A stretch of DNA of 46,223 nucleotides, from positions 1-46,223 of IMG/VR virus record IMGVR_UViG_3300033153_003564; one strand, written 5' to 3'. Position 1 is the first letter of the stretch. Each line of letters begins with the position of its first letter. Source of the stretch: a virus. This document shows, piece after piece, positions 26,708-46,223 of this stretch. The notes beneath the pieces are model-generated. The model was not told the origin of the DNA, did no database searches, and saw only the letters and a list, made by a program, of their open reading frames with translations. The translations under genes and the position numbers were made by a program.

Positions 26708-27195
26708 AAACTGTAGTTTTAGCGGCTTTGCTGTTGCTAACGCCGCTGATTGCTAACGCGGGCGGGCGGCATTACACTAATTCACAGATCGTGACTCACA
26801 GTATTGACACGTTGGTTGATACGACTGATGGGCTTGGGAACTCTGAAGCATCGGGAGAGATCGGCCTGTTCGCGATGGTCCGGTGGCAGAGCATGACCGG
26901 CATGATAATCATTGAGCCGTCCGGTGAGGACACGCTCGGTTACGGACTATCGGACTCCGGCTATGTGTATTTACGGACTCGATTGGGCGCGTCTGAATAT
27001 ACTATCGGGCAGGATTCGGCCGCAGAATTGCCGTGTACTTTGTACGTGGCTATCAGTGAACTGGTCGGCGATACGTTGCTCAAGGAGGCGCTGTTTGTCG
27101 ATTGGGTGATACAAGATTCGTTGTCGCACGTAGACGCCGAGGGGTTAACCACGTTCACGCATAGAGTAATTTGGAATTTCATAGTTAGAGACTAA
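26704..27195 (+). CDS. Exported protein between terminase subunits
   Basis: This gene encodes 163 residues from a TTG that overlaps the TerS-like stop by 4 bp. A signal peptide is clear (MKTVVLAALLLLTPLIANA, cleavage before GGRHY). The mature part is beta-rich and acidic with repeated D-T (IDTLVDTTDGLG), with a C-terminal HRVIWNFIVRD. It could be a head decoration or other virion surface protein that shares its style with 27209. No family was recognised. Confidence 0.6.
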   Translation: MKTVVLAALLLLTPLIANAGGRHYTNSQIVTHSIDTLVDTTDGLGNSEASGEIGLFAMVRWQSMTGMIIIEPSGEDTLGYGLSDSGYVYLRTRLGASEYTIGQDSAAELPCTLYVAISELVGDTLLKEALFVDWVIQDSLSHVDAEGLTTFTHRVIWNFIVRD

Positions 27196-27208: not shown

Positions 27209-27736
27209 GTGAGAAGATTTTTAGCATTAGCGGTGGCGTTGGGATTGATATATGCCGTCGCTCTCGCCGTTCCGTCAACCTATACGTGGGTTAGTATCGC
27301 CGGTACTGCGACGGTCGGGGGTAATTACAACATGGTGATGGACTCGACCGACACGGCCTATGTCGATACGTTCAACTCGGATACTGTCGACGTTACCGAA
27401 GGTATGCACATGAACATCGGCCTGTGGTACACCGATGCCACGCTTTCCGATTCTTGCAACGACTCGCTGGTTGTGATCGTACAGACGTGGACATCGTTTA
27501 ACGATCTGGCAAAGAAGTTAATCTTTACCGATACCTTCTTTGACAGTAATGCTATTGCTACGCCGTTGCCGCTGGTAACATACAACTTCAAGACCGACAC
27601 GATGGTTTACAACAAACTGTGGTTCACAACGATAGCGAAGGACAGTTGCATCACAACCAGAACTACGCCCGACACCAACGTAATCAAAATGAAGTACCAG
27701 GTGTTGCAGCGGCCTTATGGTTCTGACATCTGGTAA
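27209..27736 (+). CDS. Second exported protein in packaging block
   Basis: This gene encodes 175 residues from a GTG. Residues 1-20 (MRRFLALAVALGLIYAVALA) form a signal peptide, cleaved before VPSTY. The mature part is beta-rich with D-T-A-Y-V-D-T-F and similar D-T repeats, like 26704, and ends RPYGSDIW. The two may be a related pair of surface or decoration proteins. Their position between terminase subunits is unusual. Confidence 0.6.
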   Translation: MRRFLALAVALGLIYAVALAVPSTYTWVSIAGTATVGGNYNMVMDSTDTAYVDTFNSDTVDVTEGMHMNIGLWYTDATLSDSCNDSLVVIVQTWTSFNDLAKKLIFTDTFFDSNAIATPLPLVTYNFKTDTMVYNKLWFTTIAKDSCITTRTTPDTNVIKMKYQVLQRPYGSDIW

Positions 27737-27928: not shown

Positions 27929-29322
27929 GCGCAAGGCTTGAGGCTCTAAAGAAAGAGAAGTTGCGTATGATGCGCGAGGAGGGGTTACGGTTTTACAAAC
28001 CCCATCACGCGCAGGAACAGTTTCACAAGTCTCAGGTGCCAACTCGCGCTATATGTACCGGTAACCAGTGGGGGAAAACCTTTGCCGGTTGCGTTGAGAT
28101 AGCGTGGATAGTTGGTAAGGTTCACCCATACCGTAAAAACTATACCGGTCCTGTCTTTGCGCGTGACTGCTGTGTTGATTTTGGTACGATTCAGTCGGTG
28201 CTGGTACCGACCTACGAACGGTTATTGCCGCGAAAGCCGTGTGAGATCAACGGACGTAAGTGGCCGGGGTTGCGCGGCGGTTCGTGGTCTACGGCTTACA
28301 AGACGCAGGATCACATTCTTTATCTGGAAGACGGTTCGTTTATCGAGTTCAAGACATATGAACAGGGTCGTAAGGCCATGCAAGGAGCGCAACGGCACGT
28401 TATTCGTCACGACGAAGAACCGCCCAAGGATGTAAACGATGAGAACATTGCGCGGCAGGTAACTCTTGGCGAGAACCTTATATATACGTTCACGCCGATT
28501 GATTACTCCCAATGGTTATACGCCGACATATTTGTTCGCGCCGCAAAGCACCCTGATAAGGTTGCGTTATTTAGGGGTTCGGTTGCAGAGAATCCCTACT
28601 TAGCGCCAGGTATGCTTGAAGCGATGGAGGCTAAGTACACCGATCCGGCAATTAGGGCCGCTCGACTATATGGCGAACCAACATATTTAACCGGTAGGGT
28701 GTGGAAGGAATATGGCGACCATAACTTATGCGACCCATTCCCGATCCCCGACTATTGGGACTGCTCAGTTTGTATTGACCCGCATGATGAGAAACCGACG
28801 GCGGTTAACGTATTCACCGAATCGCCGGACGGCCAGTTGTATGTCATAGGGGAGGGCGATTTTAAGGGCGATGTTAACCAAGTTTGTGAACAGATTTTTG
28901 CCCTAACCGCCAACCGCAACATATCGCTCTGGCTGATTGATCCATCATCGAGGCGCAAGAGTACCCTTCGCGGCAAAGAGATGCGACTAATAGATGAGTT
29001 TCGGGAGCGCATTCCCACGCTAATCGAGGCTAACAACAGCCGTGAGGTCGGTTGGGACCGCGTTCGTAGGATGGTTGCCAAACCCGCTAATAATATGCCG
29101 CCAAAGTTTATGGTATTTAGGACTTGTCCCGTCACCGACTTTCAGATGCGGAACTATTCATGGAAGCCCCCTCTTAAATCGGGCGAGTCTCGCGGTAAGG
29201 CGGAAGTATTCAAGAAGGACGAAGACCATTGCGACAACGCACGTTACCGCGTCATGCATATGCCCGTAGCACACGGGGAACAGTTTAATGGATTTGGAAT
29301 AGGTGTTTACGCCAATGGCTGA
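27925..29322 (+). CDS. terL: Terminase large subunit
   Basis: This gene encodes 465 residues. The ATPase domain shows Walker A CTGNQWGKTFAG (about residues 45-56) and Walker B with catalytic acid HVIRHDEEPP (about 163-172), followed by a coupling motif near YTFTPIDYSQ. The nuclease domain starts near VCIDPHDEKPTAVNVF (about 283) with a later acidic residue in WLIDPSSRR (about 333). Length and order fit TerL. It powers headful or cos packaging with the TerS candidate at 26042 and the portal directly downstream. Confidence 0.9.
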   Translation: MSARLEALKKEKLRMMREEGLRFYKPHHAQEQFHKSQVPTRAICTGNQWGKTFAGCVEIAWIVGKVHPYRKNYTGPVFARDCCVDFGTIQSVLVPTYERLLPRKPCEINGRKWPGLRGGSWSTAYKTQDHILYLEDGSFIEFKTYEQGRKAMQGAQRHVIRHDEEPPKDVNDENIARQVTLGENLIYTFTPIDYSQWLYADIFVRAAKHPDKVALFRGSVAENPYLAPGMLEAMEAKYTDPAIRAARLYGEPTYLTGRVWKEYGDHNLCDPFPIPDYWDCSVCIDPHDEKPTAVNVFTESPDGQLYVIGEGDFKGDVNQVCEQIFALTANRNISLWLIDPSSRRKSTLRGKEMRLIDEFRERIPTLIEANNSREVGWDRVRRMVAKPANNMPPKFMVFRTCPVTDFQMRNYSWKPPLKSGESRGKAEVFKKDEDHCDNARYRVMHMPVAHGEQFNGFGIGVYANG

Positions 29323-31135
29323 TACTGACGAGACTAAAACCACTAAAGAAAACGCGACCTTTGAAGAAGATCCCGTTGCGTACTGTCAGGCTATCTACGA
29401 GGAGGCAGCGGGGCGTAACGACGATCTGCGCGATACTAACGAGGAGAACCGGCTATTCTACGAGGGGCAGGATAAGGTACTCGACGAACGGCGTAACGAT
29501 ACGCGGGTAGTACGCTCTGCTTTATTCATACCGGAAGTACAGCCCGCGATTGATACTCGGGTGGGTAACATTATTGCCAAGGTCGAAGAGCGGGAGTTTC
29601 CGGTTACGATTCGACCGGCCTCTCTTAATCCAACTACCGAGGAATACGCGCAGGCTCGTAGTGTGGAGAGGAATATAAACGGTCAGTTACGGGATTGTGG
29701 CTATCTAACCGACGGGTTCAACGAACACGTAACGGCAGCGGAAATATATCGTACCCCGTCTGCGGTCCAGGTTGGATGGGAGAGAAAGACCGAACCGAAG
29801 GCAGTCACCGAAAGCCTGCCGTTGAAAGAGGCGTTTTTCGCTTTAATGCAGGGCAAACCGATCAGCCGCGTTGTATGGAAAGATGTTCCGGTTAATCGTC
29901 CCTTTGTTGATTGGGTATACCCCGAAGACTTCCTTTACGAACCCAACCGGTCTGATTTTGAAAATACGTCTGAGTATGTAATCCGCCGTCACTGGTTGTT
30001 CTATCACGAATTGGTAGCTATGGCGAACGAGCAGGGTTGGAATACTAAGAATCTTGAAGATATGAAGGATGAGATCGGCGAGAAACAACCCGAGGGCGCT
30101 ACTGATTCACAGCGAGACGCCATCGAAGCCGAGAAAGATACGCCGTTCAGGAAGGGCTACCGAGACGGTAAGTTTCTCCTGACAGAAAACTATATTGTCA
30201 CTTATGACGCCGCCGGTCGTCAGGTAGTTAACTACGTTGTGATGGCCGGTAACAAAGAGATTATCAAACAGCGCAAGACGCCGTATCGCGGCATAAAGTT
30301 CCCGTTTGTTCCAATCGTTGCTAACCGACTACCGGGTACGCTTGAGGGCTTATCGTCGGTTGACCGCGGTAAGTATATGCAGCGACTTTATAACGAGATA
30401 TTCAACTCTTACCTGGATGGCATTACCTACCGTATTTTCCCGCCGTTCAAACATCCCCCGGGGATGAAATTTAGCAAGCAACCGGTTTATGGTCCGGCTG
30501 AGATATGGGAGATGAGCGACCCCGATGCGTTCTCGCCGGTGATAGAGAACCCCGGCCAGTTGCCCGACTTACCGGCGTTAATGAACGCTGTGGGCGCGAA
30601 GTTACGAGATGCGCTTAACGCAATCGACATTGCTCAGGGGTTCCAATCCCAACAGTACGAAAAGGCTACGTCTACCAAGTTACGCGCCGTTGGTTCAGCT
30701 ACCCGTGCGATGCCGACTCACAAGCAGTACGGCATGGCGTTGGTAAAGGTGTCTATAATGTTTTTGAAGATGAATCAGCAGTATAGTGATGATGCTCAAC
30801 TGTATGTCGGAGACTTCATTGTAGACGTACCCTCGCTGACCAACGTAAGCGATCCCGAGCAGGAGAAACAGGACTCATTGTTGTTACACTCGACCATGAT
30901 GCAAGACCCGTTATTCCAATCGCCCACCGGTATGCGGAAACGTCGGGCAATGTTTGAAGAAGTATTACGCAAGTTTAAGAAGAATAACTTTGAAGCGTTT
31001 AATCTCTCTGAAGAAGAGCTTGAGAGAGACATCCAAACGCAAACCGAAATGCAGGTAGCTGCCTTGGAGAAACAGGGCATCGCCGAGCAAATGGCGCTTG
31101 AGCAGGCGGAGGCCGCACCAGCGCAGGAGGCATAA
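29315..31135 (+). CDS. Portal protein
   Basis: This gene encodes 606 residues from ATG 29315, overlapping TerL by 8 bp; a GTG at 29303 is the alternative. The central part has the portal core pattern (AVQVGWERKTEP, PYRGIKFPFVPIVANRLPGT, then EGLSSVDRGKYMQRLYNEIF), followed by a long helical stem and crown part (QQYEKATSTKLRAVGSATRA). The C-terminus is helical and Q/E-rich. It is the dodecameric gate for DNA packaging and ejection. Its place after TerL supports this. Confidence 0.85.
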   Translation: MADTDETKTTKENATFEEDPVAYCQAIYEEAAGRNDDLRDTNEENRLFYEGQDKVLDERRNDTRVVRSALFIPEVQPAIDTRVGNIIAKVEEREFPVTIRPASLNPTTEEYAQARSVERNINGQLRDCGYLTDGFNEHVTAAEIYRTPSAVQVGWERKTEPKAVTESLPLKEAFFALMQGKPISRVVWKDVPVNRPFVDWVYPEDFLYEPNRSDFENTSEYVIRRHWLFYHELVAMANEQGWNTKNLEDMKDEIGEKQPEGATDSQRDAIEAEKDTPFRKGYRDGKFLLTENYIVTYDAAGRQVVNYVVMAGNKEIIKQRKTPYRGIKFPFVPIVANRLPGTLEGLSSVDRGKYMQRLYNEIFNSYLDGITYRIFPPFKHPPGMKFSKQPVYGPAEIWEMSDPDAFSPVIENPGQLPDLPALMNAVGAKLRDALNAIDIAQGFQSQQYEKATSTKLRAVGSATRAMPTHKQYGMALVKVSIMFLKMNQQYSDDAQLYVGDFIVDVPSLTNVSDPEQEKQDSLLLHSTMMQDPLFQSPTGMRKRRAMFEEVLRKFKKNNFEAFNLSEEELERDIQTQTEMQVAALEKQGIAEQMALEQAEAAPAQEA

Positions 31136-32799: not shown

Positions 32800-34017
32800 G
32801 TGGGAGGAACAGACGCCAGTTCATACGGCGCAAACACTACCACTCTCGCATCGGCAATAAAGACTAAGTGGGAAACCGACTTACTCGCCAAGGCCGAGGG
32901 GATGCTGGTTGCGAACAAGTTCGCGGTCAGTAAAGTGATGGGACGCGGAGCAGGCGGAACGCTTCGCATTAACAGGTTGCTTCGTCCGGCTAACGTAACG
33001 TCAGCCGACACCGAGGGTTACCTGTATGACTACGATGACGCCAAACAACTTACCTCAAACTACCTTGACCTCACTCCTGAGAGTTGGGGCGATTCGTTTG
33101 GATTCACCGCCGAGGGCGGGATTCAGTCGTTTATTAAAGACAGCGATAACCAGCATGAAATAGCCGGTCAGATGGCTCGTTCGCTGGAGTATCAGTTAAT
33201 GAAAACCATGTGTACCGGTTGCCTGCGGCACCTCATCGACAAGGATGCGACTATGCAGGTCAGCGGCACCGCCGATTCTGGCGATACGACATCGCTGATT
33301 GACGATGCGCTTACGCAGTCCGATGACGCTTGGAATGGCGGCTTTCTGACAATCGTTAACCCAGGCGGGCCGAACTATGACACGACTCGTCAGGTTGTCA
33401 ACTTTACCGCATCATCCGATGACGTGGACTTCACCGGTCGAGCGTTTAACCACGCCATGACAGACGAGTCAAAATACCGGATGTCCGTTGGTACTAATCT
33501 TACATCATCCGACATTTTGACAATCACCGGACTGTTGGATTGCGCTGCGCTGCATCGTAAGCTGGAGACCCCGAAGTTCTCTGGCGGCGTGTATCGCGCT
33601 TTCATCGACGCCGCGCAGGAGCGCGATCTTAACGACGACTCGACGTTTACCACGTCGGCCAGTTACGATAACTCTCAGCGTTACGAGAACTATCGTCTTG
33701 GTCGCTGGTTGGACATCGAGTTCTTCGTTGGGTCCGAAATCTACCGTGAATCAGTCGCAGGCGTCGAGGGTATCGGCACCGGCGCTGTGTACGTCGCTCC
33801 TATCTTTGGACCGAAGTCGTACGCTGCGGTTCGTTGGGGCCAGGGACAGGGCGACTTCGGCGTGAAATTCCATTACGTCGATGAGGCTGATTCCGGCAAC
33901 CTTCGTAATAACATGAGTTGGATTTCGTGGAGTTCACGACACGCCCGTGGCGTGTTGAGAGCTACTTCGATCATCGGCCTGATGACCGGAGCTACGAGCC
34001 TTAATGTTGTTATATAG
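32800..34017 (+). CDS. Major capsid protein, N4-gp56-like
   Basis: This gene encodes 405 residues from a GTG after AAAGGGGG. The pattern fits the N4-gp56 family of HK97-fold capsid proteins: KTKWETDLLAKAEGMLVANK near the start, TLRINRLLRPANVTSADTEG, then a D-x-D-D-A-K region, and a C-terminal W-I-S-W-S-S-R-H-A-R-G-V-L segment. The position after scaffold and the hairpin following the gene support high-level expression as the coat protein. The family name is by eye; the capsid role is more certain. Confidence 0.75.
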   Translation: MGGTDASSYGANTTTLASAIKTKWETDLLAKAEGMLVANKFAVSKVMGRGAGGTLRINRLLRPANVTSADTEGYLYDYDDAKQLTSNYLDLTPESWGDSFGFTAEGGIQSFIKDSDNQHEIAGQMARSLEYQLMKTMCTGCLRHLIDKDATMQVSGTADSGDTTSLIDDALTQSDDAWNGGFLTIVNPGGPNYDTTRQVVNFTASSDDVDFTGRAFNHAMTDESKYRMSVGTNLTSSDILTITGLLDCAALHRKLETPKFSGGVYRAFIDAAQERDLNDDSTFTTSASYDNSQRYENYRLGRWLDIEFFVGSEIYRESVAGVEGIGTGAVYVAPIFGPKSYAAVRWGQGQGDFGVKFHYVDEADSGNLRNNMSWISWSSRHARGVLRATSIIGLMTGATSLNVVI

Positions 34018-34073: not shown

Positions 34074-34349
34074 ATGGCTGAATCAAAACTTGACGAGATG
34101 ATAAGGTTGGGGCAGGGTCCAAGCGTGGTTCGCACCAGCCGAGGGCCGGGCAGTTGTTCAAGCGAAATAGTGTTTGATCGTCCCGACATGAAGAAGGAAA
34201 TCCCCATGACGTTGGCGAAGATGGAATTAGCGGGCAAGTTTCACAACAACCCCGATGCTATGGCCGCAGCGAAGATCAAGTACGACGAGTCCAAGCATAC
34301 GCCCCCGTCAAATGTAGACTACCAGAAGGAGGGACACCCGCTTGACTGA
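34074..34349 (+). CDS. Unknown 91-residue head protein
   Basis: This gene starts at ATG 34074 after AAAAGGGG. It is highly charged and mostly unstructured-looking (MAESKLDEMIRLGQGPSVVR...). It could be a head-completion or decoration protein. The end overlaps the next gene by 8 bp. Confidence 0.55.
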   Translation: MAESKLDEMIRLGQGPSVVRTSRGPGSCSSEIVFDRPDMKKEIPMTLAKMELAGKFHNNPDAMAAAKIKYDESKHTPPSNVDYQKEGHPLD

Positions 34350-34998
34350 ACCAGGGATAATAGCGGCGATAGGTTTAAGCGTTCCTACTGCCGATGCGGC
34401 GGACAAGGACGCAATAGCTCTCGCCTTTATGAATGCGGCTATACTGCGGGTCGGGCGGATACCGGGCGCTGATTTCAATAGGACGTTTGCGCCCATAACG
34501 CTCACCGTTGACAAGAGTTCGTACGTCCTCGGGCAAGACATCCTCTCTGGCGTCAATGCGTGGAGCGTAGAGGAAATGTGGCGCACGGACGTGGATGGTT
34601 GGCCCGTTGAGATTATAGGTTTCGACGATTTCAACGATCTCGTACGTGGTAATACGACAACCGGAGCGCCAAGGATAGCGACCATACATTCCGAACCGGC
34701 CGTTCTGGAAGTTCACCCCGTACCCGACTCGGCATATACCTGCAAGGCTTACGTGTCGCGGAGTATAACCAAGTTGGCTAACATACCGGGCCACTACCAT
34801 GACGTAATACTAACCACCGCGCAGGCGATGTTGAAAGCAATAGCTGATCCGCAGGTGGCGTTGATGCTGGCCCAAGAGGGCATAAAAGATATGAAGGGCG
34901 ACTCGCGCACCGGCTGGACCGGATCAAGAATCAAGGTTGCCCGTGGGCTGGATCAGGGTGACGGGACATCAAGAAGGGACTCGGGGAATCTACGATGA
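34342..34998 (+). CDS. Head-tail adaptor protein candidate 1
   Basis: This gene encodes 218 residues from a TTG eight bases after AAGGAGGG. A helical N-terminus (AADKDAIALAFMNAAILRVG) and the segment SEPAVLEVHPVPDSAYTCKA are typical of phage adaptor (gp6/SU10-type) proteins, in which beta strands end in a P-V-P motif before a helical bundle. The protein lies at the right place between capsid and neck genes. No signal peptide is present, in contrast to the next protein. Confidence 0.65.
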   Translation: MTEPGIIAAIGLSVPTADAADKDAIALAFMNAAILRVGRIPGADFNRTFAPITLTVDKSSYVLGQDILSGVNAWSVEEMWRTDVDGWPVEIIGFDDFNDLVRGNTTTGAPRIATIHSEPAVLEVHPVPDSAYTCKAYVSRSITKLANIPGHYHDVILTTAQAMLKAIADPQVALMLAQEGIKDMKGDSRTGWTGSRIKVARGLDQGDGTSRRDSGNLR

Positions 34999-35681
34999 AG
35001 ACGCTTTGGCCGCTACTATTTATTCTATTTGTTGCCGTTAACGTCTCGGCGGCTGATTTCCTTGACGACTTCACGGGATACGGGGTCAAGATGCGTCAGT
35101 CGTTAGGTATTTCGGGGTCAGCTACGGGGATGCTTGACGACACAACGGCTAACAACTTCGTGCGAGAAGCCATTGTTACTTTATCGCCGTTAATTAAGCC
35201 AAGGAAAGCGACCACAACGATTATCACTACCTACAGGCAAAACGCTTATTCGTTGGACACGCTTGTTTCGGGCATAATTGCCGTGGAATGGTCTAAGAAT
35301 GATTCGGTTAAATCGCTTGTCTACGTCCCGCGTAATCTTTGGTATGAACAGTATAGCAAGGTGACTAAGGATAAAAAGGACCCATACCAGCAACGCCCAT
35401 CGTACTACGATTTCATTGACGGCACAATATATCTGTACCCGGTGCCGTCGGCTGTGAGGGGCGATACAATCAAAATCATGGGTTGGGAGAAGCTACCAAA
35501 CTTCATTTCCGCCGACACGCTTGAAATTATCCCACTTATATACCGCGTAGCAATATTGAAGTACGCCGTATATCTCGCAGCGCGAGCGCGTAGTAACCCA
35601 ATGACGCCGATGTATTTGCGCGATTACGAGCAGGCCATTGCAATACTCAGGGGGGAATATGGCACGACTCCTACTCAGTAG
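34995..35681 (+). CDS. Adaptor-like protein 2 with signal peptide
   Basis: This gene encodes 228 residues, ATG overlapping the previous stop by 4 bp. The first 19 residues (MKTLWPLLFILFVAVNVSA) make a strong signal peptide cleaved before ADFLDDF. The rest matches the adaptor plan: helical start, then SYYDFIDGTIYLYPVPSAVR followed by GDTIKIMGWEKLPN, and a C-terminal helix with RDYEQAIAILRGEYG. The shared Y/V-P-V-P segment with 34342 suggests the two are distant paralogues. Export of a neck adaptor would be unexpected. Confidence 0.65.
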   Translation: MKTLWPLLFILFVAVNVSAADFLDDFTGYGVKMRQSLGISGSATGMLDDTTANNFVREAIVTLSPLIKPRKATTTIITTYRQNAYSLDTLVSGIIAVEWSKNDSVKSLVYVPRNLWYEQYSKVTKDKKDPYQQRPSYYDFIDGTIYLYPVPSAVRGDTIKIMGWEKLPNFISADTLEIIPLIYRVAILKYAVYLAARARSNPMTPMYLRDYEQAIAILRGEYGTTPTQ

Positions 35682-38253
35682 CATACTTGTTTTTCTGTTA
35701 TACAGTTCTTCCCTCGGGCAGGATAATACTGCAACCGAAAAAGTATTTACTATAGACAGATTCCTCGGGATGAATACCATGTCCGGCGACTTCGCCGTGA
35801 AGCCGGGTGAAGCGCGGGAGATGCGGAACTTCGACCTTAATCGCAACCCGTTCTCGCTAACCAAGCGGTACGGTTATGATACCGTTGGGATAATAGCCGG
35901 TCAGGATTCCATCGTCAGTATCTACGCCGCATACTATTCAGACGGTACGCAACAGTTGTTTATCGTTACTGATTCAACGGGCGTTGGATACGGCAATATC
36001 TATATCACCGCCAAGGGATCGGATGATGTTACCTCATTAACGCGGATAGCTACGCTATGGGGGATACAAAACAAAACGTCGTTTACGATGTTGCGCGACC
36101 AGGTGTTTATGGTCAACGGACAGCAAAAGGGATTGATATGGAATGGGGATATAGCGCGGTCGTTTCCGCTGCCAGCCCCGGGTGAACCCAAGATAGTCCC
36201 GTTAGATATGGATGGGTCTACCAACGCGAACTATTACCTTAGCGGAGAGTATCGGTATAAGTTCGTCACTATCATATATCACGATACTACCGACACCCCC
36301 CCCACAAGGGTCTCGCAGCATAGTTACGCCTCGACGCCAATAGTCGTGGATGGTGGGAGGGTTTTGTTGACAGGGTTCCAGTTTCCGCCCGTTGATTCTA
36401 TCCTGAACAGTGGTGTTGCCGACTCAGTGAATATCGGTATATATAGAACGGCAGCCAACCCTGGGCCTATTACCGAAGCTGACTCAGTGTTTATAACCGG
36501 TATAACGCTATGGTCGTGGGCATCGGGGGGGGGGGCGCACGGCATGGACTCCCTTGCAGACATCGTGGTGATAGATAGTATGCCGGACAGCGCCCTGTCA
36601 ACAACGGGGATGCCGGTTGTTTTCACAGACATGGAAGGCCGCGACTCGGTTGGCGATATGTACCGTCGCTATGGAGCGCCATCTTTTTATGCGTCGAATG
36701 ATTCTGGAACGTATGATACGGCATCAGCGGGCCACGATATACAACCCTTTGGCATCTACTACGGTTTCCCAGAGCAGACCGATACCCTCGGTGTTGTTTA
36801 TGCGTGTACGTTTATAGACACTGTAAGCGGTATTGAGTCGGGGTTAAGTTCTGCGTGTCACGTTTTTAATGACACCGTAACATCAGGCGACCTTGAGTTT
36901 TCATACACAATTGGCTTACCCCGTATTCCAGACAATGACACCGGTATCGTTATCAACGTCTATCGAGCGATGATAATGCAAATCACAAGCGACAGTTCGT
37001 ACTGGAAACGTATATCCACCACCCCATACACAACAGTAGTTATTGGCCCCAACGCGACAAAGTTCGACGTGCGAAAGTTAGAAGATGGGAGTTATGCACT
37101 TTACAAGTGGCAAGATCACCTTGCCGTTGATACGGTGGTAACGTCGGACTATTATCTGTTAAGACAGGTTCCCGCGGTAGACACAATCTTAACCGACAGC
37201 ATCCGTACCGACTCACTCCTTGCAACTGGTAAGGTGTATAGGTCATCGTCTCCGCCACTACTAAACTCAGTGTTTTCCCACGGAGACAACGTGTTTGGGT
37301 TATTCAAGTCGGCGCTGTATGTCTCTAAGCTCGACACAATCTCTAATTGGGGGCTGTTTGACTACATTATCCTGAGCGGCTCTGACGGCGACGAAAACAC
37401 AGCCGCTTATCCATCACGCGGCGTTATCCGTGTGATGAAGAACAAGTCAACATACAATGTTTATCAGGACGCAAACCTCCAGTGGAACCGCTCTGAAGTG
37501 TCGGGCTATAGTGGGTGTGTTGCCCCGCGTAGTCTCGCCTCTGGGTCTGGCGGGACGTACTACTATAGTAACGAAGGCGTTGTGCGCGAGGCCGAAGGTC
37601 AGTACAAGAACCGCTTATACGACGTATCACTTATATCAGCGCCCATCCGTGCCTTGGACAGTCTGCCGATAACAGAACGCGCCAATACGGTCGGTTTCTA
37701 CCTCGGCCAGAAGTATATGCTATCAATCCCGTCTATGGGCCGCACCTATGTTTACTACGAAAAGGTCGGCGGTTGGGGCTGGTGGGACTTTGATATAGCC
37801 GGAGCAACCCTATACAACACCGAGTCTGAATTGAACTTCATTCCTGGTGATACTATGTACTTCTTTAAGGGCGGAGAGTCGGTTGTGTTTAAGTACGGAT
37901 CGTCCGAAGAGGACGGTGGTAATTCAATTAGGGTTTTATGGACATCCACGCCGATTCTAACCGATTGCTATACGTATAAGTCGATCAACGCCGTTGGGGT
38001 TGCAGTGCAATCGACAGCGGCGGACACGCTATATCTCGGATTGATAAGCGAGGAAGGGGCGCATAAACTACCGGGCTACCTTGCCTATAATAATCTGGCT
38101 AAGCGATATACGCTCAAGGGGATAAAGCCGTTAGAACAATTATACTGGCAGGTCGAGTTAGCTAACAACTACACAAGCGACAATTGGGACAATACGATCG
38201 TTGATCGCATAGATATAATCTATACTGAAAAGGGAGCTATTCTACGAGAGTGA
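35659..38253 (+). CDS. Tail nozzle/stabilisation-like protein with signal peptide
   Basis: This gene encodes 864 residues from ATG 35659, eight bases into a poly-G ribosome site; it overlaps the previous gene. A signal peptide precedes the mature start (MARLLLSSILVFLLYSSSLG, cleavage before QDNTA). The mature N-terminus FTIDRFLGMNTMSGDFAVKP, then GEAREMRNFDLNRNPFSL, is the hallmark of short-tail nozzle proteins (P22 gp10 or T7 gp12 type), followed by a beta-propeller-like body (NWGLFDYIILSGSDGDENTA, later RGVIRVMKNKSTYNVYQD). It should form the hexameric tail tip. The signal peptide is out of place for that job. Confidence 0.75.
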   Translation: MARLLLSSILVFLLYSSSLGQDNTATEKVFTIDRFLGMNTMSGDFAVKPGEAREMRNFDLNRNPFSLTKRYGYDTVGIIAGQDSIVSIYAAYYSDGTQQLFIVTDSTGVGYGNIYITAKGSDDVTSLTRIATLWGIQNKTSFTMLRDQVFMVNGQQKGLIWNGDIARSFPLPAPGEPKIVPLDMDGSTNANYYLSGEYRYKFVTIIYHDTTDTPPTRVSQHSYASTPIVVDGGRVLLTGFQFPPVDSILNSGVADSVNIGIYRTAANPGPITEADSVFITGITLWSWASGGGAHGMDSLADIVVIDSMPDSALSTTGMPVVFTDMEGRDSVGDMYRRYGAPSFYASNDSGTYDTASAGHDIQPFGIYYGFPEQTDTLGVVYACTFIDTVSGIESGLSSACHVFNDTVTSGDLEFSYTIGLPRIPDNDTGIVINVYRAMIMQITSDSSYWKRISTTPYTTVVIGPNATKFDVRKLEDGSYALYKWQDHLAVDTVVTSDYYLLRQVPAVDTILTDSIRTDSLLATGKVYRSSSPPLLNSVFSHGDNVFGLFKSALYVSKLDTISNWGLFDYIILSGSDGDENTAAYPSRGVIRVMKNKSTYNVYQDANLQWNRSEVSGYSGCVAPRSLASGSGGTYYYSNEGVVREAEGQYKNRLYDVSLISAPIRALDSLPITERANTVGFYLGQKYMLSIPSMGRTYVYYEKVGGWGWWDFDIAGATLYNTESELNFIPGDTMYFFKGGESVVFKYGSSEEDGGNSIRVLWTSTPILTDCYTYKSINAVGVAVQSTAADTLYLGLISEEGAHKLPGYLAYNNLAKRYTLKGIKPLEQLYWQVELANNYTSDNWDNTIVDRIDIIYTEKGAILRE

Positions 38254-38264
38254 GGGGGATATAA

Positions 38265-38813
38265 ATGGCCTATGAGTTTGGACAGAACGTAGGCTTCGGC
38301 AACTATCTCGGCGGCGGGGGTCAGTCGAATGACGGCATCATGCAACTACTGAGGATGTTCGGTGGCGGTGGTCAAGGCGGTGGTGGTCAAGGCGGCTTAA
38401 ACCTTGGCGCAACTGATGCGCTATCGCTTTTAGGCGGACCAACTGGTATCGGACTAAACATCGGTGGGAAAGTCCTTGAGGGTATCGGGGGGTTAATCGG
38501 CGGTCCGTCGGCTGGAGAGAAACGCGCCGAAAAGACGTTCAACTTAGCGAAGAACCGGCTCGGTCAGGACGTGCTTGATCCAAGCCAGTACCTCGCGGAC
38601 TATATGAGGTCGTTAGCCCCGCAGTTCAACCGTGACGCTGCCGGTGTGTCGGCACGACTCGGACTTGATAGCGGGTTAGCGCAACAGGAACTCGCGTCCG
38701 GTCGCCAGTCACAGATAAGCGACTTCTTCTTCAAGGGGAAGATGCTGAATGACCAACTGAAGGCGCAACAGGATAATATGCTGCTCTCGCTAATGGCGCA
38801 GCTTGGGGGTTGA
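38265..38813 (+). CDS. Glycine-rich ejection/virion protein candidate
   Basis: This gene encodes 182 residues. The first half is glycine-rich (MRMFGGGGQGGGG-type stretch around residues 29-45, then ALSLLGGPTGIGLNIGGKVL), the second helical and amphipathic (SQYLADYMRSLAPQFNRDAA, then RLGLDSGLAQQELASGRQSQ). Small proteins of this plan next to nozzle genes are often internal virion proteins ejected with DNA. No signal peptide is present. Confidence 0.55.
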   Translation: MAYEFGQNVGFGNYLGGGGQSNDGIMQLLRMFGGGGQGGGGQGGLNLGATDALSLLGGPTGIGLNIGGKVLEGIGGLIGGPSAGEKRAEKTFNLAKNRLGQDVLDPSQYLADYMRSLAPQFNRDAAGVSARLGLDSGLAQQELASGRQSQISDFFFKGKMLNDQLKAQQDNMLLSLMAQLGG

Positions 38814-38817
38814 TCTG

Positions 38818-39696
38818 ATGGCACAGGATAGACCTACCAACTTTTTCGAGGTTCTGTTTAAGTCTGCGGGCGCCGGTCTGTCTGAAGTCGGCGAAAAACT
38901 ACCCGGGGCGAAACAGCAGGAACGTCAGAACAAGATACAGACGTTGATGCTCGGCATGCAGATGCAGCAGAGTCAGCGGGATCAGCAACTCAACAGTCTC
39001 AATATGCAGATGCGTAAGTTGCAGATTACGGGGCTGGAAGCTCAGACAAAAAAGATACTGCGCGATTCGGCGAAGACGCCGGAGCAGTTAGCGGCAGAAG
39101 AAGCGCGGGCGCAGACCGCTGGTACATTAGAGGCTATACGTGGATTCGAGGGGATGACCGCGCCGGAAGGTTTTGGGTTTGATATACCGGGGCTGTCGCC
39201 CATAGGGGAGCCGAAGATACCTAAGTTGGACGTGAACCAGTTCATGCTCGATCAACTTGGGCCAGAGGCTTTTGCGGATTGGCAAACGGGAACTGGTGCT
39301 TTTACCCCACCGCCAAAGGAACCGACATCAGCAGAACTCAGGGCGCGGGGAAAAGAAACGGAACGGAAAAGCAGGCGCAGCGTACTCACTAAGGCCAATA
39401 ACCTCTACCAGAAAGTTGTCTCTGATACAGAGCGCTCAAAGGCAGGTGTCGTAGCTATTAACGACGAAGCAGACCTCCAGAAAGTTGTGGCGCATCTGAT
39501 TAAGACAGGCGGACGGACCAGAATTAGGGGGAACCGATTCACTGATGAGTTTTTCCCCGATGAGAGTGATCCTAAGATAACGGGGGACCTTAACGCCCTA
39601 CTGGATGAATATATATCCATCGGCGCGACCGAAACTGTCCTTACCGCTGACGAGGAAGCGGAGTTTAACGCTTTAATGGAGAAGCAGAAGCAATAA
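38818..39696 (+). CDS. Coiled-coil virion protein candidate
   Basis: This gene encodes 292 residues from ATG 38818, after GGGGG at proper distance (the TTG at 38803 is less likely). A long helical part rich in Q and M (QTLMLGMQMQQSQRDQQLNS) suggests a coiled coil; the rest is mixed and ends in an acidic helix (ADEEAEFNALMEKQKQ). Its place between two ejection-type proteins suggests an internal or neck role. Confidence 0.55.
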   Translation: MAQDRPTNFFEVLFKSAGAGLSEVGEKLPGAKQQERQNKIQTLMLGMQMQQSQRDQQLNSLNMQMRKLQITGLEAQTKKILRDSAKTPEQLAAEEARAQTAGTLEAIRGFEGMTAPEGFGFDIPGLSPIGEPKIPKLDVNQFMLDQLGPEAFADWQTGTGAFTPPPKEPTSAELRARGKETERKSRRSVLTKANNLYQKVVSDTERSKAGVVAINDEADLQKVVAHLIKTGGRTRIRGNRFTDEFFPDESDPKITGDLNALLDEYISIGATETVLTADEEAEFNALMEKQKQ

Positions 39697-39699
39697 CGT

Positions 39700-42279
39700 A
39701 TGCCATTAACTGTAGCTGAAAAACGACGGATGTTGGAGTTGCATCGTAAGCGCGAAGGGACCGCCGTTGCCGTAGCTGAACCTGAGCCGGAGGATACTGG
39801 CGGCGGGTTTCTATCCACGCTTGGGGCTTTCTTAAAACACCCGTTTGTCGGTGCTGGGGGAACGATAGAATCTGGGATACTGAATCCAGCTCAGTTCTTC
39901 CAGCAAGACCCTGTTGTTGCGGCGAAGCGTGTTGGCGGGGGATTAGCCGCCGGAGCTACGCTTGGCGCAGTTGCGCCATTCGCGGAAGATGTTGAAGGCT
40001 CAACGTCTGGTCAGGTTGCCGAACTCCTCGGGACATTCGCTCCATTTGGAGCCGTGAGTAAATTCGTTGGTGGGATCAAGGGTGTTGGCGGTCTTACGCG
40101 AGGTCTTATGACGGGGGCCTCACTTGCCGGGGTAGAACAGGGGGCAAGAAGCGCTGTTGGTAAGGATGTTAGTTTAGGGCAAGCCGCCGGAACAACTGCT
40201 ATCTTCGGCGCACTCGATGGTTTCTTACACGGGTTAGGTTCGTTTGGTAAGAAGCTCTCTAAGATGCGAGATGTTACCAAGATACAGAAGGAACTCAGTG
40301 GGGCCGTTGAGCGTGGCGAGATTAAGGCTATGTCTGATTCTGAGGTGAAGACACTGAGTAAGGCTATTGTTCACGGTGAAAGCAAGGCATCACTCGCTTT
40401 ACCCGCTAACGAACGATTCCTTGGGCAATCCGGTCTCGGCGGTGCATCTAACCAACCTCGTCTGTATGCACCAGCCATCACTCGCGGCGAAGAGAAGGTC
40501 TTACACCAGATACCGCAGATAACTGAACGGGGTACAATAGACCGGTATGTTACGCAGCCGAACTTCATAGAGACCGGTCCGAGGATGCATCGGCGATTGG
40601 GCACCACGGAACTTATGCTAAACCCGATACATAAAGCCGAGAATGATGCGGCGCGTCACATTAAGGATACGTCAGATGAGTTCAACAAGCTCATTAAGGA
40701 CAATATAAAGTTTGGTCATCGTGGGCCAGCGAGTAGGAATATAATGATCTACGCTACCGCCCAACAAAAAGGTGGGGCTAAGATACTTGGACAGATGGGC
40801 ATTAAAGAGACACCAACGCTTACTGCTAACGAACAAAAGATATATGGGTGGATGCGCGAACGATTAGAGGGGTACTATACCGCTCTCAATCAGGCGCGAT
40901 TAGCGGGCGGGTTGAAGCCGTTCCCTAAAGTGCAAAACTATTTCACGTTCTTCCGGTCAATGAACGGTGAACTCAAGAATGGGTTTGACATGAGAACGCT
41001 CGACATACCAAATACGATGCGTAGGCGAATACCGAGGATCGAGGAAACGCCGTTTAGGTACAAGAAGCCCCGCGTTACCGATGATTACGGCGAGTTGGAG
41101 CTTGATGCTTTCAGCGTCTTTGAGCGCTATTCGCAGTCTGCCTTGCGTCACATTGAACTCACCCCGCAGGTACAGCGCGTTAGACAAATGCTTGATCCCG
41201 TGGGTGGTAAATTTAAGAGCGGGTTTAATCTCCTTGAAGAAAACCCGGAAGCGTACAGGGACCTTAATAGTTGGGTCAACTTCGTTGCGGGCGTGGATGA
41301 GCGACTATTAGCGGCGTCAGTGGAAAAGCAGCTTGGGAAAACAAACGAGAATTTAGCTTACGCCGTACTTGGATACAATATCAGATCGGCTTTCATCCAG
41401 CCCACCGCTATCGTAAACTCTCTCGTTGAGATAGGTCCTAAATATACCATGCAGGGTATAAATGCGATGTTCAACAAAGAAGAACGGGCATTTGCAAGGA
41501 GAATGTCTGACCATCTTGCCGGGAGGGAACACGACGTCGCCCTTAACGAGTTAATGACCAGCGTTACCGGGTCTACGGCTCAGATAAAGAAAAAGGTCGG
41601 TCGGGGTGGACTCAAGCCCCTACAACTCCTTGATATGCAGACAGCTGTTGCTTCGTGGTTGGGAGCTTACAAAAAGGGCCGCGCCGTGGAGAAACTCGGC
41701 GAAACAAAGGCTGCGCGGTATGCAGACGATATTGTTATCCGCACACAGGCATCAGCTTCAAGGTCAGACGTTGCCCCAATTCAACGATCTAAGACGGGTA
41801 AGTTTGTAGCGATGTTTCAGACGTTCGTTATTAACAACTGGGGCTTTCTAACGCGAGACGTGCTTGGGTTGGGCAACGTATCCGTAAACAACAAACAGGC
41901 GATGGCTAAAGTCGTGCGATTGATCGCGGGCGTGACCGCTGTAAACACGTTATACGAGGATATACTTGGCGTTAGGTCGCCATTCCCCGCTCCGATAAAC
42001 GCTTACAGAAAAGAGATTGCAAAGAGCGGTGAGTCCGGTAAAGCGATAGGGCAAGCCATACTTGAATTAGCTGAGGTTGTTCCCGTTGTCGGCGGCGGTA
42101 TGCGATACGGTAGTAGTCCGCTTGGTGCGGGGATACAGTTAACGGAGGACTTAGCTGAATTAGTTCGAGGGAAACAAAAAGCAGCCAAGGCTGCTGAGAC
42201 AATCGGTAAACTAACCGGTATGCCTGGAACCACACAGATAAAGAAGACGATACGCTTCCTGAAGAAGCCAAAAGAATAA
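39700..42279 (+). CDS. Large internal (ejection-type) virion protein
   Basis: This gene encodes 859 residues. The N-terminus is charged (MPLTVAEKRRMLELHRKREG), then comes a glycine/alanine-rich hydrophobic part (RVGGGLAAGATLGAVAPFAE), which could insert in membranes, and a long helical body (EKQLGKTNENLAYAVLGYNI, then SAFIQPTAIVNSLVEI). The segment FVAMFQTFVINNWGFLTRDV fits the C-terminal part of large polyvalent or ejection proteins of podoviruses. No transglycosylase motif was identified. It is likely released into the cell envelope with the DNA. Confidence 0.6.
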   Translation: MPLTVAEKRRMLELHRKREGTAVAVAEPEPEDTGGGFLSTLGAFLKHPFVGAGGTIESGILNPAQFFQQDPVVAAKRVGGGLAAGATLGAVAPFAEDVEGSTSGQVAELLGTFAPFGAVSKFVGGIKGVGGLTRGLMTGASLAGVEQGARSAVGKDVSLGQAAGTTAIFGALDGFLHGLGSFGKKLSKMRDVTKIQKELSGAVERGEIKAMSDSEVKTLSKAIVHGESKASLALPANERFLGQSGLGGASNQPRLYAPAITRGEEKVLHQIPQITERGTIDRYVTQPNFIETGPRMHRRLGTTELMLNPIHKAENDAARHIKDTSDEFNKLIKDNIKFGHRGPASRNIMIYATAQQKGGAKILGQMGIKETPTLTANEQKIYGWMRERLEGYYTALNQARLAGGLKPFPKVQNYFTFFRSMNGELKNGFDMRTLDIPNTMRRRIPRIEETPFRYKKPRVTDDYGELELDAFSVFERYSQSALRHIELTPQVQRVRQMLDPVGGKFKSGFNLLEENPEAYRDLNSWVNFVAGVDERLLAASVEKQLGKTNENLAYAVLGYNIRSAFIQPTAIVNSLVEIGPKYTMQGINAMFNKEERAFARRMSDHLAGREHDVALNELMTSVTGSTAQIKKKVGRGGLKPLQLLDMQTAVASWLGAYKKGRAVEKLGETKAARYADDIVIRTQASASRSDVAPIQRSKTGKFVAMFQTFVINNWGFLTRDVLGLGNVSVNNKQAMAKVVRLIAGVTAVNTLYEDILGVRSPFPAPINAYRKEIAKSGESGKAIGQAILELAEVVPVVGGGMRYGSSPLGAGIQLTEDLAELVRGKQKAAKAAETIGKLTGMPGTTQIKKTIRFLKKPKE

Positions 42280-42296
42280 CGTCAAAGGGGGCCACT

Positions 42297-42512
42297 TTGT
42301 CACAAACGATAGACGATAGAGCATGGGAATTGCTGGTGGAGAATATAGCGGCGATCAGGAAGAGCGTTACTGATGTTGACGGTAAGATTGCGGAAGGTTT
42401 CAAGACGTTGAATGGTCGCGTCCGTAAGCTCGAATACTGGCGGGCGTATCTGACCGGGGCTGTTGGTATGGTAAGCGCTGCGGTCGCTATTATGTGGGGG
42501 GTATTCAAGTGA
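42297..42512 (+). CDS. XhlA-like membrane protein
   Basis: This gene encodes 71 residues from a TTG after AAAGGGGG. Coiled-coil helices (WELLVENIAAIRKSVTDVDG, then GFKTLNGRVRKLEYW) are followed by one membrane helix (YLTGAVGMVSAAVAIMWGVF). This is the plan of XhlA-type lysis-associated proteins, which help holins. It lies far from the lysis cassette and is coupled to the fibre gene, so a virion or membrane-anchor role is possible. Confidence 0.55.
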   Translation: MSQTIDDRAWELLVENIAAIRKSVTDVDGKIAEGFKTLNGRVRKLEYWRAYLTGAVGMVSAAVAIMWGVFK

Positions 42513-45500
42513 AACTTACGAAACTTGGTATGACTATTGCGGGGCTTGTGGTCGTACTATTCTGGATATTGTGGCCGGGTGGTCCGCTATGGGGGCAGGG
42601 GTCGCCGCCAAGCGCAAGCTACTGGACCAGAGGCGGGACTGCTCTATATAATACTTCCGGCGACACCCTTGCTATGTATGCGGCGGGGGTTCCGATGTTC
42701 CGCGTCTATGATAAGGGCGACACGTCGTATTTTCAGCCAATGACTAATGAAAATATCATTTTAGGCGGCAGCGTTGACACTTGGCACATTTATGACCCTT
42801 GGATATGGTATGATGAAATTGTGATGGGTGGAAATGACATTAACGGCATTGGAACGGCAACGGCAACATCGTTCGTCGGCAACCTGACCGGCCACGCTGA
42901 TTCGGCAAGCGCGATAACGGACGGCGGGGTTGACGCGGCTGATATGGCCGACGAAGATCATGGAGACTTCACATACTTAAGCGCAGTAGCAACCTTAGAC
43001 GCTAATACTGTTGACTCAGGACAAGTAACCGATGCTAGCCTTATCGAAGCAGACCTGAAAGTTACAAACTCCCCCACTGATGACTACCTTCTGAGCTATG
43101 ATTTGGCATCACTGGGTTTCACTTGGGTTGTTAGTCCTTCTGCTGGCGCCTTGACCTACTGGACAGAATCAGAGGGTAGCGATAGTTCGCGGCTGATACC
43201 TGTCACAAATACCATTGCAACCATACAGGCTGATTCTGAGATTGTCTTTGTTGCCGGTGCTGGAACTTCTGCGCCCTTCACGTTCAAGGGTCCGGGGGGC
43301 GCAAGTATCGGCCTCGGAACTGGAACGCCGGTAGTTTTAGATTCTTCGTTACTGGCTTGGTTGGTGCAGACATTAACCGCTAATCAGTTCTTAGCTATTG
43401 ACGACTTCACGCTAACCAATGGATCGGCGGCTGACGGCACCTATGATGCCACGGATGTACCAACGGACGGTCAACAGCTAACGTGGAATACGGGGAATAC
43501 TTACACTTGGGAAGCGGCTGGCGGCGGTTCTGTGACTCTTGCCGCTATGTTCCCCTTCATGGACCGAAGCTATTTCGATACAACAGTGACGGGTACTAAC
43601 GATTCTCTGATTCCCAAGATGACAAATACTTGGGCCGACGAAGATATAATCACTTACGAAGCGACGGGAGACGGCTTTGAGGGACAGACTATTGCCGAGC
43701 TTGGCATTGCGGCGAGGGGAGATACGGTAGCGGGGGCAGCGCCGATTGACGCTTCTGCTCTATTAGTGTCGAGCAATCAGGTTTATGATTGGGTGACGGC
43801 TAATTTCCTATTGAACACTACGGATATATTGGTTGGGACGCTGACCCTTGACGGGCTTACTCTTGGAGCGAACGAGAATATCACGCTTGGGGCTGAGACT
43901 ATTGATCACGATGGAACAGATTTTGTGTTTAGCGATGATATAGATATAGGAAGTTTTACATATACGGGATGGGGCATAGGCTCTGGCGTCGATCTTAACG
44001 TGAGTTCGTCAGATACAATCAAATTCTTGCCGAGCGCAGGGCCGCTTGATTGGACAATGGCGGGAAATCGTTTTGAGGGAATAGCCAACACCGCCGTCGT
44101 AGCCGACTCCGGTATCTTCAGCGTTAGGCTCGTTATGGGGTCTGCCGATATAGCCGAGGCTGAATTAGAGATACTTGACGGCGCTACGGTTTCAACAACG
44201 GAGATAAATTACGTTGTCGGCGTGACCGGCCCTATTCAAGATGCGTTAGATACAATGTTACTTGGCTATCCGATTGATACGGCGACGGGGGGCGGAAGTA
44301 ATAACCTTGATGAAGGCGACTTATTGGCTTGGAACTCCGCTAACAGCGAATGGCGTCCAACAACTGCCGGTGCGGGGGAAACTAATACTCTTAGCGATAC
44401 GGGAACCTTTAATGGCACTGAGGGATTCGGTCTTGCTGGCGGGAAAACTGGCACCGCCCTGAAGGTTAAAGGACTCATCGAGGGAACGAATATAACGATA
44501 GCGCCTGACGGTGATTCCGCCTACACGATCACTGCCTCTGGCGGTTCGGGTGATGTCACGAAGGTTGGAACCCCCGTGAACGATCAGGTGGGAGTTTGGA
44601 CCGGAGATGGGACGCTCGAAGGCGATGCTGATTTGACGTTTGACGGTTCCAATCTGACGGTAACGGGAACTCTATCTGCCTCGAATGTAAGCGGCACTAA
44701 TACGGGCGATGTTGCCGAGGATGATATTGATTCGCTGCTCTTAAAGACAACTAACGCCCTTGCGGACGAAGACATTATTACCTACGAATCTACCGGTGAT
44801 GGGTTTGAGGGAATGACACCTACGGAGTTAGGCTTGGCCGTTGATGGCGGCGCACACCATGACGGTTTCTCTGACTTCGTAGCTACGGAACATATTGATT
44901 CGACCGTTCTGTCTGCCGTTGTAAGTGATACCGCAGATATATTACGTGCCGAGATGGATGACTCTGTAACCTTCCTAAACGTCTATAAATACTTTGATCG
45001 GACTTATTTTGACACTCTTATTGACGCCGAGGGCGATAGTATATTTGTTCTATTAGCTGACTCATCAGCGAGAACGGATACAAGCATTGTCGCCAGTTTA
45101 GCGGCCCTCAATGATAGCTTGGCGGTCATTCGGGACACGATAGGCATTATCACCGATCTTGATTCGGCGAACATATCAGACAATGGTATTGCAGACACGG
45201 ACATTGACTGGGGGAACGCTACCGCTGGTCAAGTCAGTATGGATGATATTGGCGATGGTTCTACTAATGCGGCAATCACGCTCACACAGGAAACTAACTT
45301 TGAATCTGCTTACGGGTGGGGCGATCATGGAACGGAGAACTACTTCGACACCACAGCCGACAACCTTGCGGATATTCCGGCCTCTGGCAACTGGTTAGTA
45401 TATTACAGTAACGGAACTGCCGTCTTAACAGGATTGGCTCTCGGCGCGGACGGCACTTACCTGCGTAGCAACGGGGCAGCGGCAGCGCCGACATTCACAA

Positions 45501-46223
45501 CGCCATCAGGTTCCGGCCTTTGGGTGGAAGCCGAAGATAAGAGCCACCTGCTCGACATGACCGACAGCGATTCGCTGATGGTCCTTACCGATGATGACGC
45601 AGGCAATGTAACATGGGCTATTGGCGATGAACAAACGGGCGGGCTGACCATTGACGGTACAGGCGACTTGACGCTGGTTGGCGCTACGGGAGAATCAAGT
45701 ATTGGCGTAGGCGTAGGCACTCCGGTTGTGATGGACTCGACCTTTATCAGTTGGCTGGTGAATACGCTGGTGGGGTTGGACTTCTTGATTGGCACTGCCG
45801 ACGCTACGCTTACCAGCGAATTCATTGTAGGCACGACTCCGAATGGCGATCTTGGCGGGACGTGGGACGCTATCACCGTTGATGATGATTCACATAACCA
45901 TGTTATTACCAACGTGGACGCCTTCACTGAGACAGAATTAGAAACGCAGACCTCGGACGTAACGGCTTACTTCACCAACAATGTCACCGGAGACGTAACG
46001 GTCTCGGCTTCAACTTCAACTATCGGCGCAAATGTCGTTGATTCTACGCACATAACGGACGGCGATCTCGCTGTAGAAGATATGAATTGGGACTATGAAT
46101 GGATTCATTTCTTTAACGTCCACGGTTTTGCGAGAGCGTTAGAGGATTCTATTTACCTGTATGAGAATGTTATGACGGCTACCGAATCATGGTTGCTTTC
46201 GGATATGGCGGGGAACCTGAGCG
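42509..46223 (+). CDS. Large tail fibre protein, N-terminal part, with signal peptide
   Basis: This gene starts at a GTG in a four-base overlap with the previous stop and runs past the window end, continuing at 60-418. The first 30 residues (basic MKLTKLG, then MTIAGLVVVLFWILW, cleavage plausible before QGSPP) look like a signal peptide or membrane anchor. The body is low-complexity, acidic and beta-rich with D, T, G and S. Repeated segments occur: DEDIITYEATGDGFEG near 43640 and DEDIITYESTGDGFEG near 44770; also SIGLGTGTPVVLDSSLLAWL near 43303 and SIGVGVGTPVVMDSTFISWL near 45698. YGWGDHGTENYF near 45310 is a motif of fibre repeats. It is probably the receptor-binding fibre. Confidence 0.8.
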   Translation, partial: MKLTKLGMTIAGLVVVLFWILWPGGPLWGQGSPPSASYWTRGGTALYNTSGDTLAMYAAGVPMFRVYDKGDTSYFQPMTNENIILGGSVDTWHIYDPWIWYDEIVMGGNDINGIGTATATSFVGNLTGHADSASAITDGGVDAADMADEDHGDFTYLSAVATLDANTVDSGQVTDASLIEADLKVTNSPTDDYLLSYDLASLGFTWVVSPSAGALTYWTESEGSDSSRLIPVTNTIATIQADSEIVFVAGAGTSAPFTFKGPGGASIGLGTGTPVVLDSSLLAWLVQTLTANQFLAIDDFTLTNGSAADGTYDATDVPTDGQQLTWNTGNTYTWEAAGGGSVTLAAMFPFMDRSYFDTTVTGTNDSLIPKMTNTWADEDIITYEATGDGFEGQTIAELGIAARGDTVAGAAPIDASALLVSSNQVYDWVTANFLLNTTDILVGTLTLDGLTLGANENITLGAETIDHDGTDFVFSDDIDIGSFTYTGWGIGSGVDLNVSSSDTIKFLPSAGPLDWTMAGNRFEGIANTAVVADSGIFSVRLVMGSADIAEAELEILDGATVSTTEINYVVGVTGPIQDALDTMLLGYPIDTATGGGSNNLDEGDLLAWNSANSEWRPTTAGAGETNTLSDTGTFNGTEGFGLAGGKTGTALKVKGLIEGTNITIAPDGDSAYTITASGGSGDVTKVGTPVNDQVGVWTGDGTLEGDADLTFDGSNLTVTGTLSASNVSGTNTGDVAEDDIDSLLLKTTNALADEDIITYESTGDGFEGMTPTELGLAVDGGAHHDGFSDFVATEHIDSTVLSAVVSDTADILRAEMDDSVTFLNVYKYFDRTYFDTLIDAEGDSIFVLLADSSARTDTSIVASLAALNDSLAVIRDTIGIITDLDSANISDNGIADTDIDWGNATAGQVSMDDIGDGSTNAAITLTQETNFESAYGWGDHGTENYFDTTADNLADIPASGNWLVYYSNGTAVLTGLALGADGTYLRSNGAAAAPTFTTPSGSGLWVEAEDKSHLLDMTDSDSLMVLTDDDAGNVTWAIGDEQTGGLTIDGTGDLTLVGATGESSIGVGVGTPVVMDSTFISWLVNTLVGLDFLIGTADATLTSEFIVGTTPNGDLGGTWDAITVDDDSHNHVITNVDAFTETELETQTSDVTAYFTNNVTGDVTVSASTSTIGANVVDSTHITDGDLAVEDMNWDYEWIHFFNVHGFARALEDSIYLYENVMTATESWLLSDMAGNLS
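46165..46223. repeat. Right copy of 59-bp terminal direct repeat
   Basis: Identical to positions 1-59. See the left copy; the two are the overlap of a circular map. Confidence 0.95.

Follow-up and report, generated by a model that had tools for sequence, protein, structure and literature searches.

The IMG/VR virus record IMGVR_UViG_3300033153_003564, analysed here over all of its 46,223 nucleotides (the window), is a tailed phage genome in which one of two apparent adaptor proteins, the tail nozzle and fibre proteins begin with Sec signal peptides. Related genomes conserve these signals, which are restricted to one set of proteins; in the adaptor and the nozzle a complete family domain follows. 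Export of this adaptor (adaptor-2), the nozzle and the fibres is well supported by sequence comparison, and we consider it fairly probable that the virion is made in two compartments, with heads in the cytoplasm and an exported distal tail. Chances are about even that the window represents a lineage of tailed double-stranded DNA (dsDNA) phages with cytoplasmic DNA-filled heads and a distal tail matured in the periplasm, the split having come about through duplication of the adaptor and the placing of signals on one copy, the nozzle and the fibres. The usual teaching is that a tailed phage is finished in the cytoplasm before the cell lyses, and production of virion parts outside it is not known for this group. 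The protein families are already known, and it is their apparent sorting that is new. The window is read as a complete phage genome because its first 59 bases (positions 1–59) are repeated exactly as its last 59 (46165–46223). A TerL scan gave two close relatives, G001 (3300033148_002821; 46,077 bp, terminal repeat of 114 bases) and G002 (3300033145_003410; 34,940 bp), whose core proteins are 40–56% identical to those of the window (G000); these three genomes make up the signal-bearing clade. Scans with TerL and profiles also yielded the distant relatives L013, L014, L017 and L020.

Signals were scored with a home-made tripartite score of the n-, h- and c-regions, which is not a SignalP prediction. 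An earlier note on this DNA had described eight morphogenesis-region N-termini (genes at 34995, 35659, 42509, 1316, 2071, 5010, 26704 and 27209) as signal-like. All eight were read and the description was borne out: they score 13.5–17.6, in the range of the positive controls OmpA, PhoA, MalE, LamB, DsbA and OmpF (13.6–17.7 by the same score), and the virion proteins of control phages lie below. Each has one or two Lys or Arg residues (a single Arg in the nozzle), a hydrophobic run of 8–16 residues and a cleavage pattern of small residues. The signals of the whole set, at 13.2–19.4, overlap the positive controls and have the n-, h- and c-region features of Sec and signal peptidase I substrates, with small residues at −3 and −1. 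The top + strand scorers in the window are these eight together with 6993 (16.5), which becomes the ninth signal-bearing protein of the list, 16880 (15.5) and 19267 (13.9); the highest-scoring antisense open reading frame (ORF) reaches 13.2. No virion gene of T7, P22 or the first 40 kb of SU10 scores 13 or more, the maximum being T7 gp14 at 11.3, and the scorers in these phages are Rz, Rz1, a holin and small non-virion genes. Among 61 late genes of the Cellulophaga phages phi14:2, phi38:1 and phi18:1, two of which have virion proteins annotated from tandem mass spectrometry, the single scorer is a lipoprotein adjoining the endolysin; unlike the window, these phages have no signal-bearing virion protein by the same score. 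The controls therefore indicate that neither short-tailed nor Bacteroidota phages carry virion signals as a rule. That the N-termini are real Sec signals, under selection and probably cleaved, is well supported by these comparisons and those below.

The structural module of the window is of the SU10 type, judging from profile matches and gene order. The portal (29303–31135; this and all window features below are on the + strand) matches Pfam SU10_portal (PF23899) with E 1.2e-13 and 50.9 bits against a cut-off of 30. Adaptor-2 begins at 34995 with the signal MKTLWPLLFILFVAVNVSA (34995–35054; score 15.25, orthologues 16.2 and 18.8), with cleavage near SA/AD, and its mature part (35055–35681) belongs to the SU10_adaptor family (PF24175, E 1.2e-13, 52.4 bits against a cut-off of 27), as do its orthologues. 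The nozzle signal (35659–35718), MARLLLSSILVFLLYSSSLG followed by QDN, scores 13.7 (orthologues 16.4 and 15.8; alignment A1). The mature nozzle (35719–38253) aligns by hhalign to the nozzle of L017, over only about 130 N-terminal residues, and matches phrog_511 with E 0.001. Its likeness to SU10 gp17 is indirect, the L017 nozzle and gp17 both matching phrog_3287. Escherichia phage SU10 (Kuravirus; PMC9509320) thus has portal, adaptor and nozzle families in common with the window, and its gene order, TerL-portal-scaffold-major capsid protein (MCP)-adaptor...nozzle, is also that of the window. SU10 differs in having one adaptor and no signals on its adaptor, fibres or nozzle, whereas in the window the adaptor is apparently doubled and the distal parts bear signals. 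The earlier note likened the nozzle to P22 gp10 and T7 gp12, but the closest identified family is that of SU10; T7 gp11/gp12 and P22 gp4/gp10 play the adaptor and nozzle role in a short tail, but gave no sequence match here and have no signals.

The second, signal-free copy, adaptor-1 (34342–34998), is a probable SU10-type adaptor with a C-tail of about 35 residues (GWTGSRIKV). Its G001 orthologue matches SU10_adaptor with E 7.9e-9 over residues 1–187 (profile 1–182); the window and G002 copies fall below the cut-off, the window copy having a weak match to PHROG 10775. An AlphaFold model of adaptor-1 is poor (predicted local distance difference test, pLDDT, 50), with best Foldseek matches to phage adaptors that are merely suggestive; that of the nozzle is unusable (pLDDT 28). 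In alignment A7 the C-tails of adaptor-1 and its orthologues (GWTGSRIKV, LWSGNSIGI, SWEGNTILV) line up with EYSGSPIAI of SU10 gp11, and the SU10 adaptor C-terminal loop is wedged between portal clip domains (PMC9509320). Adaptor-2 and its orthologues end shortly after the last helix, with a short C-tail that is not clamp-like. The clamp-like tail and the signal are thus divided between the copies, adaptor-1 having the tail and no signal and adaptor-2 the signal and no such tail. Inward of this border no signals occur; beyond it the nozzle and most fibre-region proteins bear them. The signal-free side includes the major capsid protein (32800–34017; phrog_1357, E 4.5e-11) and, by gene order, three probable internal (ejection) proteins at 38265, 38803 and 39700 (38265–42279). 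The signal-bearing side includes the fibre-like protein at 42509 (1,357 aa), which spans the circular join (42509–46223 and on to base 418, the ORF listed at 8–418 being its C-terminal end) and whose signal ends in LVVVLFWILWPGGPLWG before QGSPP. In addition, the exported side comprises a fibre-region protein at 1316–2074 (MRKLLACLLLIAGPALG followed by Q; score 15.3, G001 orthologue 19.4), a fibre or spike-like protein at 2071–5013 (MRKLLYILLLLPTLA; 13.5, G002 orthologue 15.2) and a fibre-like protein at 5010–6278, with a signal in all three genomes. In L017, a fragment of a distant SU10-type phage, the adaptor and nozzle are signal-free and the three fibre-like genes between them (2076–4583), in the place of the SU10 fibre genes, bear signals; gene 3795 among them has a Laminin-G-like domain (Laminin_G_3). 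Fibre export may have arisen more than once, or may have been the first step.

The sorting is conserved. Orthologues in G001 and/or G002 carry a signal in all eight families compared (34995, 35659, 1316, 2071, 5010, 6993, 26704 and 27209), that of 6993 in G002 appearing at an inner start, 22798. None of ten virion and packaging families (TerL, portal, 31135, scaffold, MCP, 34071, adaptor-1, 38265, 38803 and 39700) has a signal in its orthologues; those of 38265 and 38803 are signal-free in both relatives, and for 39700 this applies to G002 only. Borderline scores in the signal-free group, 11.6 for G001 adaptor-1 and 10.4 for the longest reading of the G002 portal, we regard as spurious hits of this score. 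The G001 adaptor-1 has acidic residues in its n-region and Asp in its c-region, and aligns with the first helix of the family. The orthologues keep the signal while its sequence diverges, as expected of Sec substrates. Nozzle signals are 18–47% identical between genomes and the next ~50 residues 54–67%; against the G002 copy the values are 18–21% and 57–67%. In simulations of conservative drift, about 7% of nozzle and 20% of adaptor-2 signals keep a passing score per lineage. In the 5010 family the last ~196 residues alone are common to the three genomes, the N-terminal domains having been exchanged with the signal kept in all. Retention despite drift and despite this domain swap argues for selection on the signal.

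The start sites also bear on the question. Signal-bearing genes start with G-rich ribosome sites and overlap gene ends, and the next start in frame lies within the adaptor domain (codon 33) in the one case and midway through a conserved nozzle motif in the other, so that an error of the start is unlikely. An artefact of mis-called starts or chance hydrophobic N-termini, for which no supporting point was found, is hardly credible: the coupled starts have no alternatives, the orthologues agree and the control phages lack such N-termini, and mis-called starts were rejected on the first of these grounds. Position 3 of the SU10_adaptor profile falls at residue 26 of G002 adaptor-2, and position 1 falls at residue 1 or 2, starting with Met, in the signal-free adaptors of L013, L014, L017 and in G001 adaptor-1. 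In the nozzle profile, residue 31 of the window aligns to residue 12 of the signal-free L017 nozzle (hhalign A1, P 96, E 1e-9). Since the family domains begin right after the signal, the signals are best seen as additions to complete proteins. The family-like N-terminus described earlier as directly following the signal was found for 34995 and 35659, but could not be demonstrated for 42509, which has no family match. The earlier note named homologues with translation starting after the hydrophobic part as grounds against export; this did not occur within the clade, which keeps the extension, and it is distant homologues without the signal whose genes start at the mature end. Signal-free are likewise the nozzles and adaptors of MaAM05, the nozzle of ctKR88, and the adaptor and nozzle of L013. 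The 274 kb "Microcystis phage MaAM05" record itself (MW495066.1, L024), in which a prophage-like module of SU10 type is surrounded by pgcA, kimA, lepA, proS and ftsH, looks like a piece of a bacterial chromosome rather than a phage.

No second start site was found after the signals, which counts against a dual fate in which part of each protein folds in the cytoplasm for the virion and the exported part has another job, for example masking receptors against superinfection. Phage-encoded exported proteins that alter the host surface are known, and lectin-like domains occur in the exported sets (Laminin_G_3 in L017 3795, and a CBM96 match below the cut-off in 1316). Adaptor-2 and the nozzle, however, have no obvious surface role, and signals of this strength disfavour retention in the cytosol; we regard the dual fate as improbable.

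Evidence from the predicted cleavage sites favours removal of the signals. Of 28 signals (L017 included), 10 have Gln after a small residue at the predicted site, as against 6% in mature stretches (P 4e-6); for the three genomes alone the count is 10 of 25. Signal peptidase I substrates with Gln at +1 are known from Bacteroidetes and some other bacteria, with a Bacteroidetes mean of 71% (PMC5837995), and the Q-rule is assigned from about 48% or more of such substrates; about 40% here is an enrichment, yet below that mean. A Bacteroidota-type host is plausible from this Gln. The A-X-A type c-regions and the enrichment of Gln at +1 make cleavage preferable to tethering, and the membrane-tether option offered earlier is accordingly the less likely one. 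In such a scheme, uncleaved N-termini would act as signal anchors that keep the neck, the nozzle and the fibres on the inner membrane, where heads would dock and tails be completed, or would give the virion membrane-active ends. The long h-regions of fibre 42509 and of G002 15332 fit such anchors, and the orientation and hydrophobicity would suit them too, but in addition to the c-regions, homology with SU10 places the N-terminal platform of the nozzle towards the adaptor and not at the distal tip (PMC9509320). Overall, we hold tethering to be unlikely. A membrane-penetrating tail tip was disfavoured on the same placement of the nozzle N-terminus.

Phage-encoded signal peptides, some with the Bacteroidetes Q-rule, have been reported in Nixviridae of Porphyromonas gingivalis, also on major capsid proteins (PMC10367356). 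The Q-rule signals are of unknown function in that report; in the window the neck, nozzle and fibre carry signals, but the capsid does not. The same study ascribes the signal-peptide sequences on the Porphyromonas phage capsid proteins to cleavage by a prohead protease, which lends something to the idea that a phage protease cuts off the window signals, or that they serve as assembly peptides, without any export. Since no prohead protease was recognised in the window, and the capsid protein and scaffold are signal-free while tail and fibre proteins bear signals, this appears very unlikely. Among other known systems, filamentous phages of the M13 type have virion proteins with cleavable signals that are assembled at or outside the inner membrane (PMC8310372 for G3p). 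These phages are unrelated, have single-stranded DNA and are extruded without lysis, whereas the window is the genome of a tailed dsDNA phage that encodes a terminase, a capsid, an endolysin and holin-like proteins. Of the crAss-like and other Bacteroidota phages compared, Cellulophaga phi14:2 resembles the window in having, by annotation, several small structural proteins of neck-like type. No description of signals on the neck or nozzle of a tailed phage was found in the open-access literature, so that their absence elsewhere is unproven; the nearest report is the one on Porphyromonas phages.

The two-compartment route would run as follows. Terminase, portal, scaffold, capsid protein, internal proteins and adaptor-1 would make DNA-filled heads in the cytoplasm, which adaptor-1 would close with its portal-clamping C-tail. 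Adaptor-2, the nozzle and the fibre proteins would pass through SecYEG, lose their signals to host signal peptidase I and fold in the periplasm, where they may assemble into tail-tip complexes. Once holin and endolysin had opened the inner membrane, the heads would come into contact with the distal tails stored outside it, and the particles would be finished. The lysis genes are an NlpC/P60 endolysin at 6280 and two genes, 42297 and 6733, that are holin-like by appearance only. For the P22 tailspike it is established, in extracts, that tail parts can be added late to filled heads. We infer that the proteins are in fact exported and cleaved, that they assemble in the periplasm and that heads and tails join at lysis. 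The earlier suggestion that part of the particle is made at the inner membrane or outside it agrees with the data, and the split between an exported and a non-exported adaptor gives it a sharper form, while it stays an argument from sequence. Disulphide formation was rejected as a general reason for export, mature adaptor-2 and the fibre having no Cys.

Several points weigh against this route. In the short-tailed phages known so far, the adaptor and the nozzle are added in the cytoplasm, and little time is left if heads are completed at lysis. The signals are known from the home-made score, and the clade from just three genomes. Direct profile comparison of the two adaptor sets (A2 versus A4) was not significant; with the weak PHROG match and the poor model, this makes paralogy of adaptor-1 and adaptor-2, which rests on the G001 copy, likely rather than proven. 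In L017 the fibres are exported while the adaptor and the nozzle are not, and therefore the export border is not universal. In addition, fibre-region genes 382 and 729 have no signal, and 26704, 27209 and 6993 may not be virion parts.

If the route is true, virion assembly can be divided across a membrane, a natural system exists in which closing the neck can be separated from attaching the tail, and host Sec and signal peptidase are predicted to be necessary for infectivity. Signals on nozzle and fibres also form a checkable genomic signature to seek in other uncultured phages, one that would at present go unnoticed, since such genes receive an annotation by function or none.

Whole-region nucleotide searches and tblastn with adaptor-2 and nozzle found no match among annotated phages, nor did scans of viral contigs with the MCP and with a single nozzle sequence. 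Two scans of genome contigs gave no host-linked relatives, and PDB sequence searches gave no relevant match. Two further exported proteins lie upstream of the terminase, at 26704–27195 (score 16.8, G001 orthologue 18.0) and 27209–27736 (17.6, orthologues 14.8 and 16.1). In L013 a small protein between terminase and portal (5604–5951) has a borderline signal (12.7), in a position that recalls these two. The ninth exported protein (6993–7496; signal-bearing orthologues G001 6939–7424 and G002 22798–23271) adjoins holin-like 6733, has a beta-rich, barrel-like look and may be a protein of the outer membrane with a part in lysis or exclusion. The early-region gene at 16880–17146 is likely a small lipoprotein (MKYILILAALMLVGC) with lipobox LVGC. 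Intein-free in the window and G002, TerL contains an intein in G001 (L002:8672–11005, or G001:27928–30261; Intein_splicing E 4.6e-9, LAGLIDADG_3 E 5.7e-10) of ~310 residues, inserted before the position equivalent to residue 127 of the window TerL.

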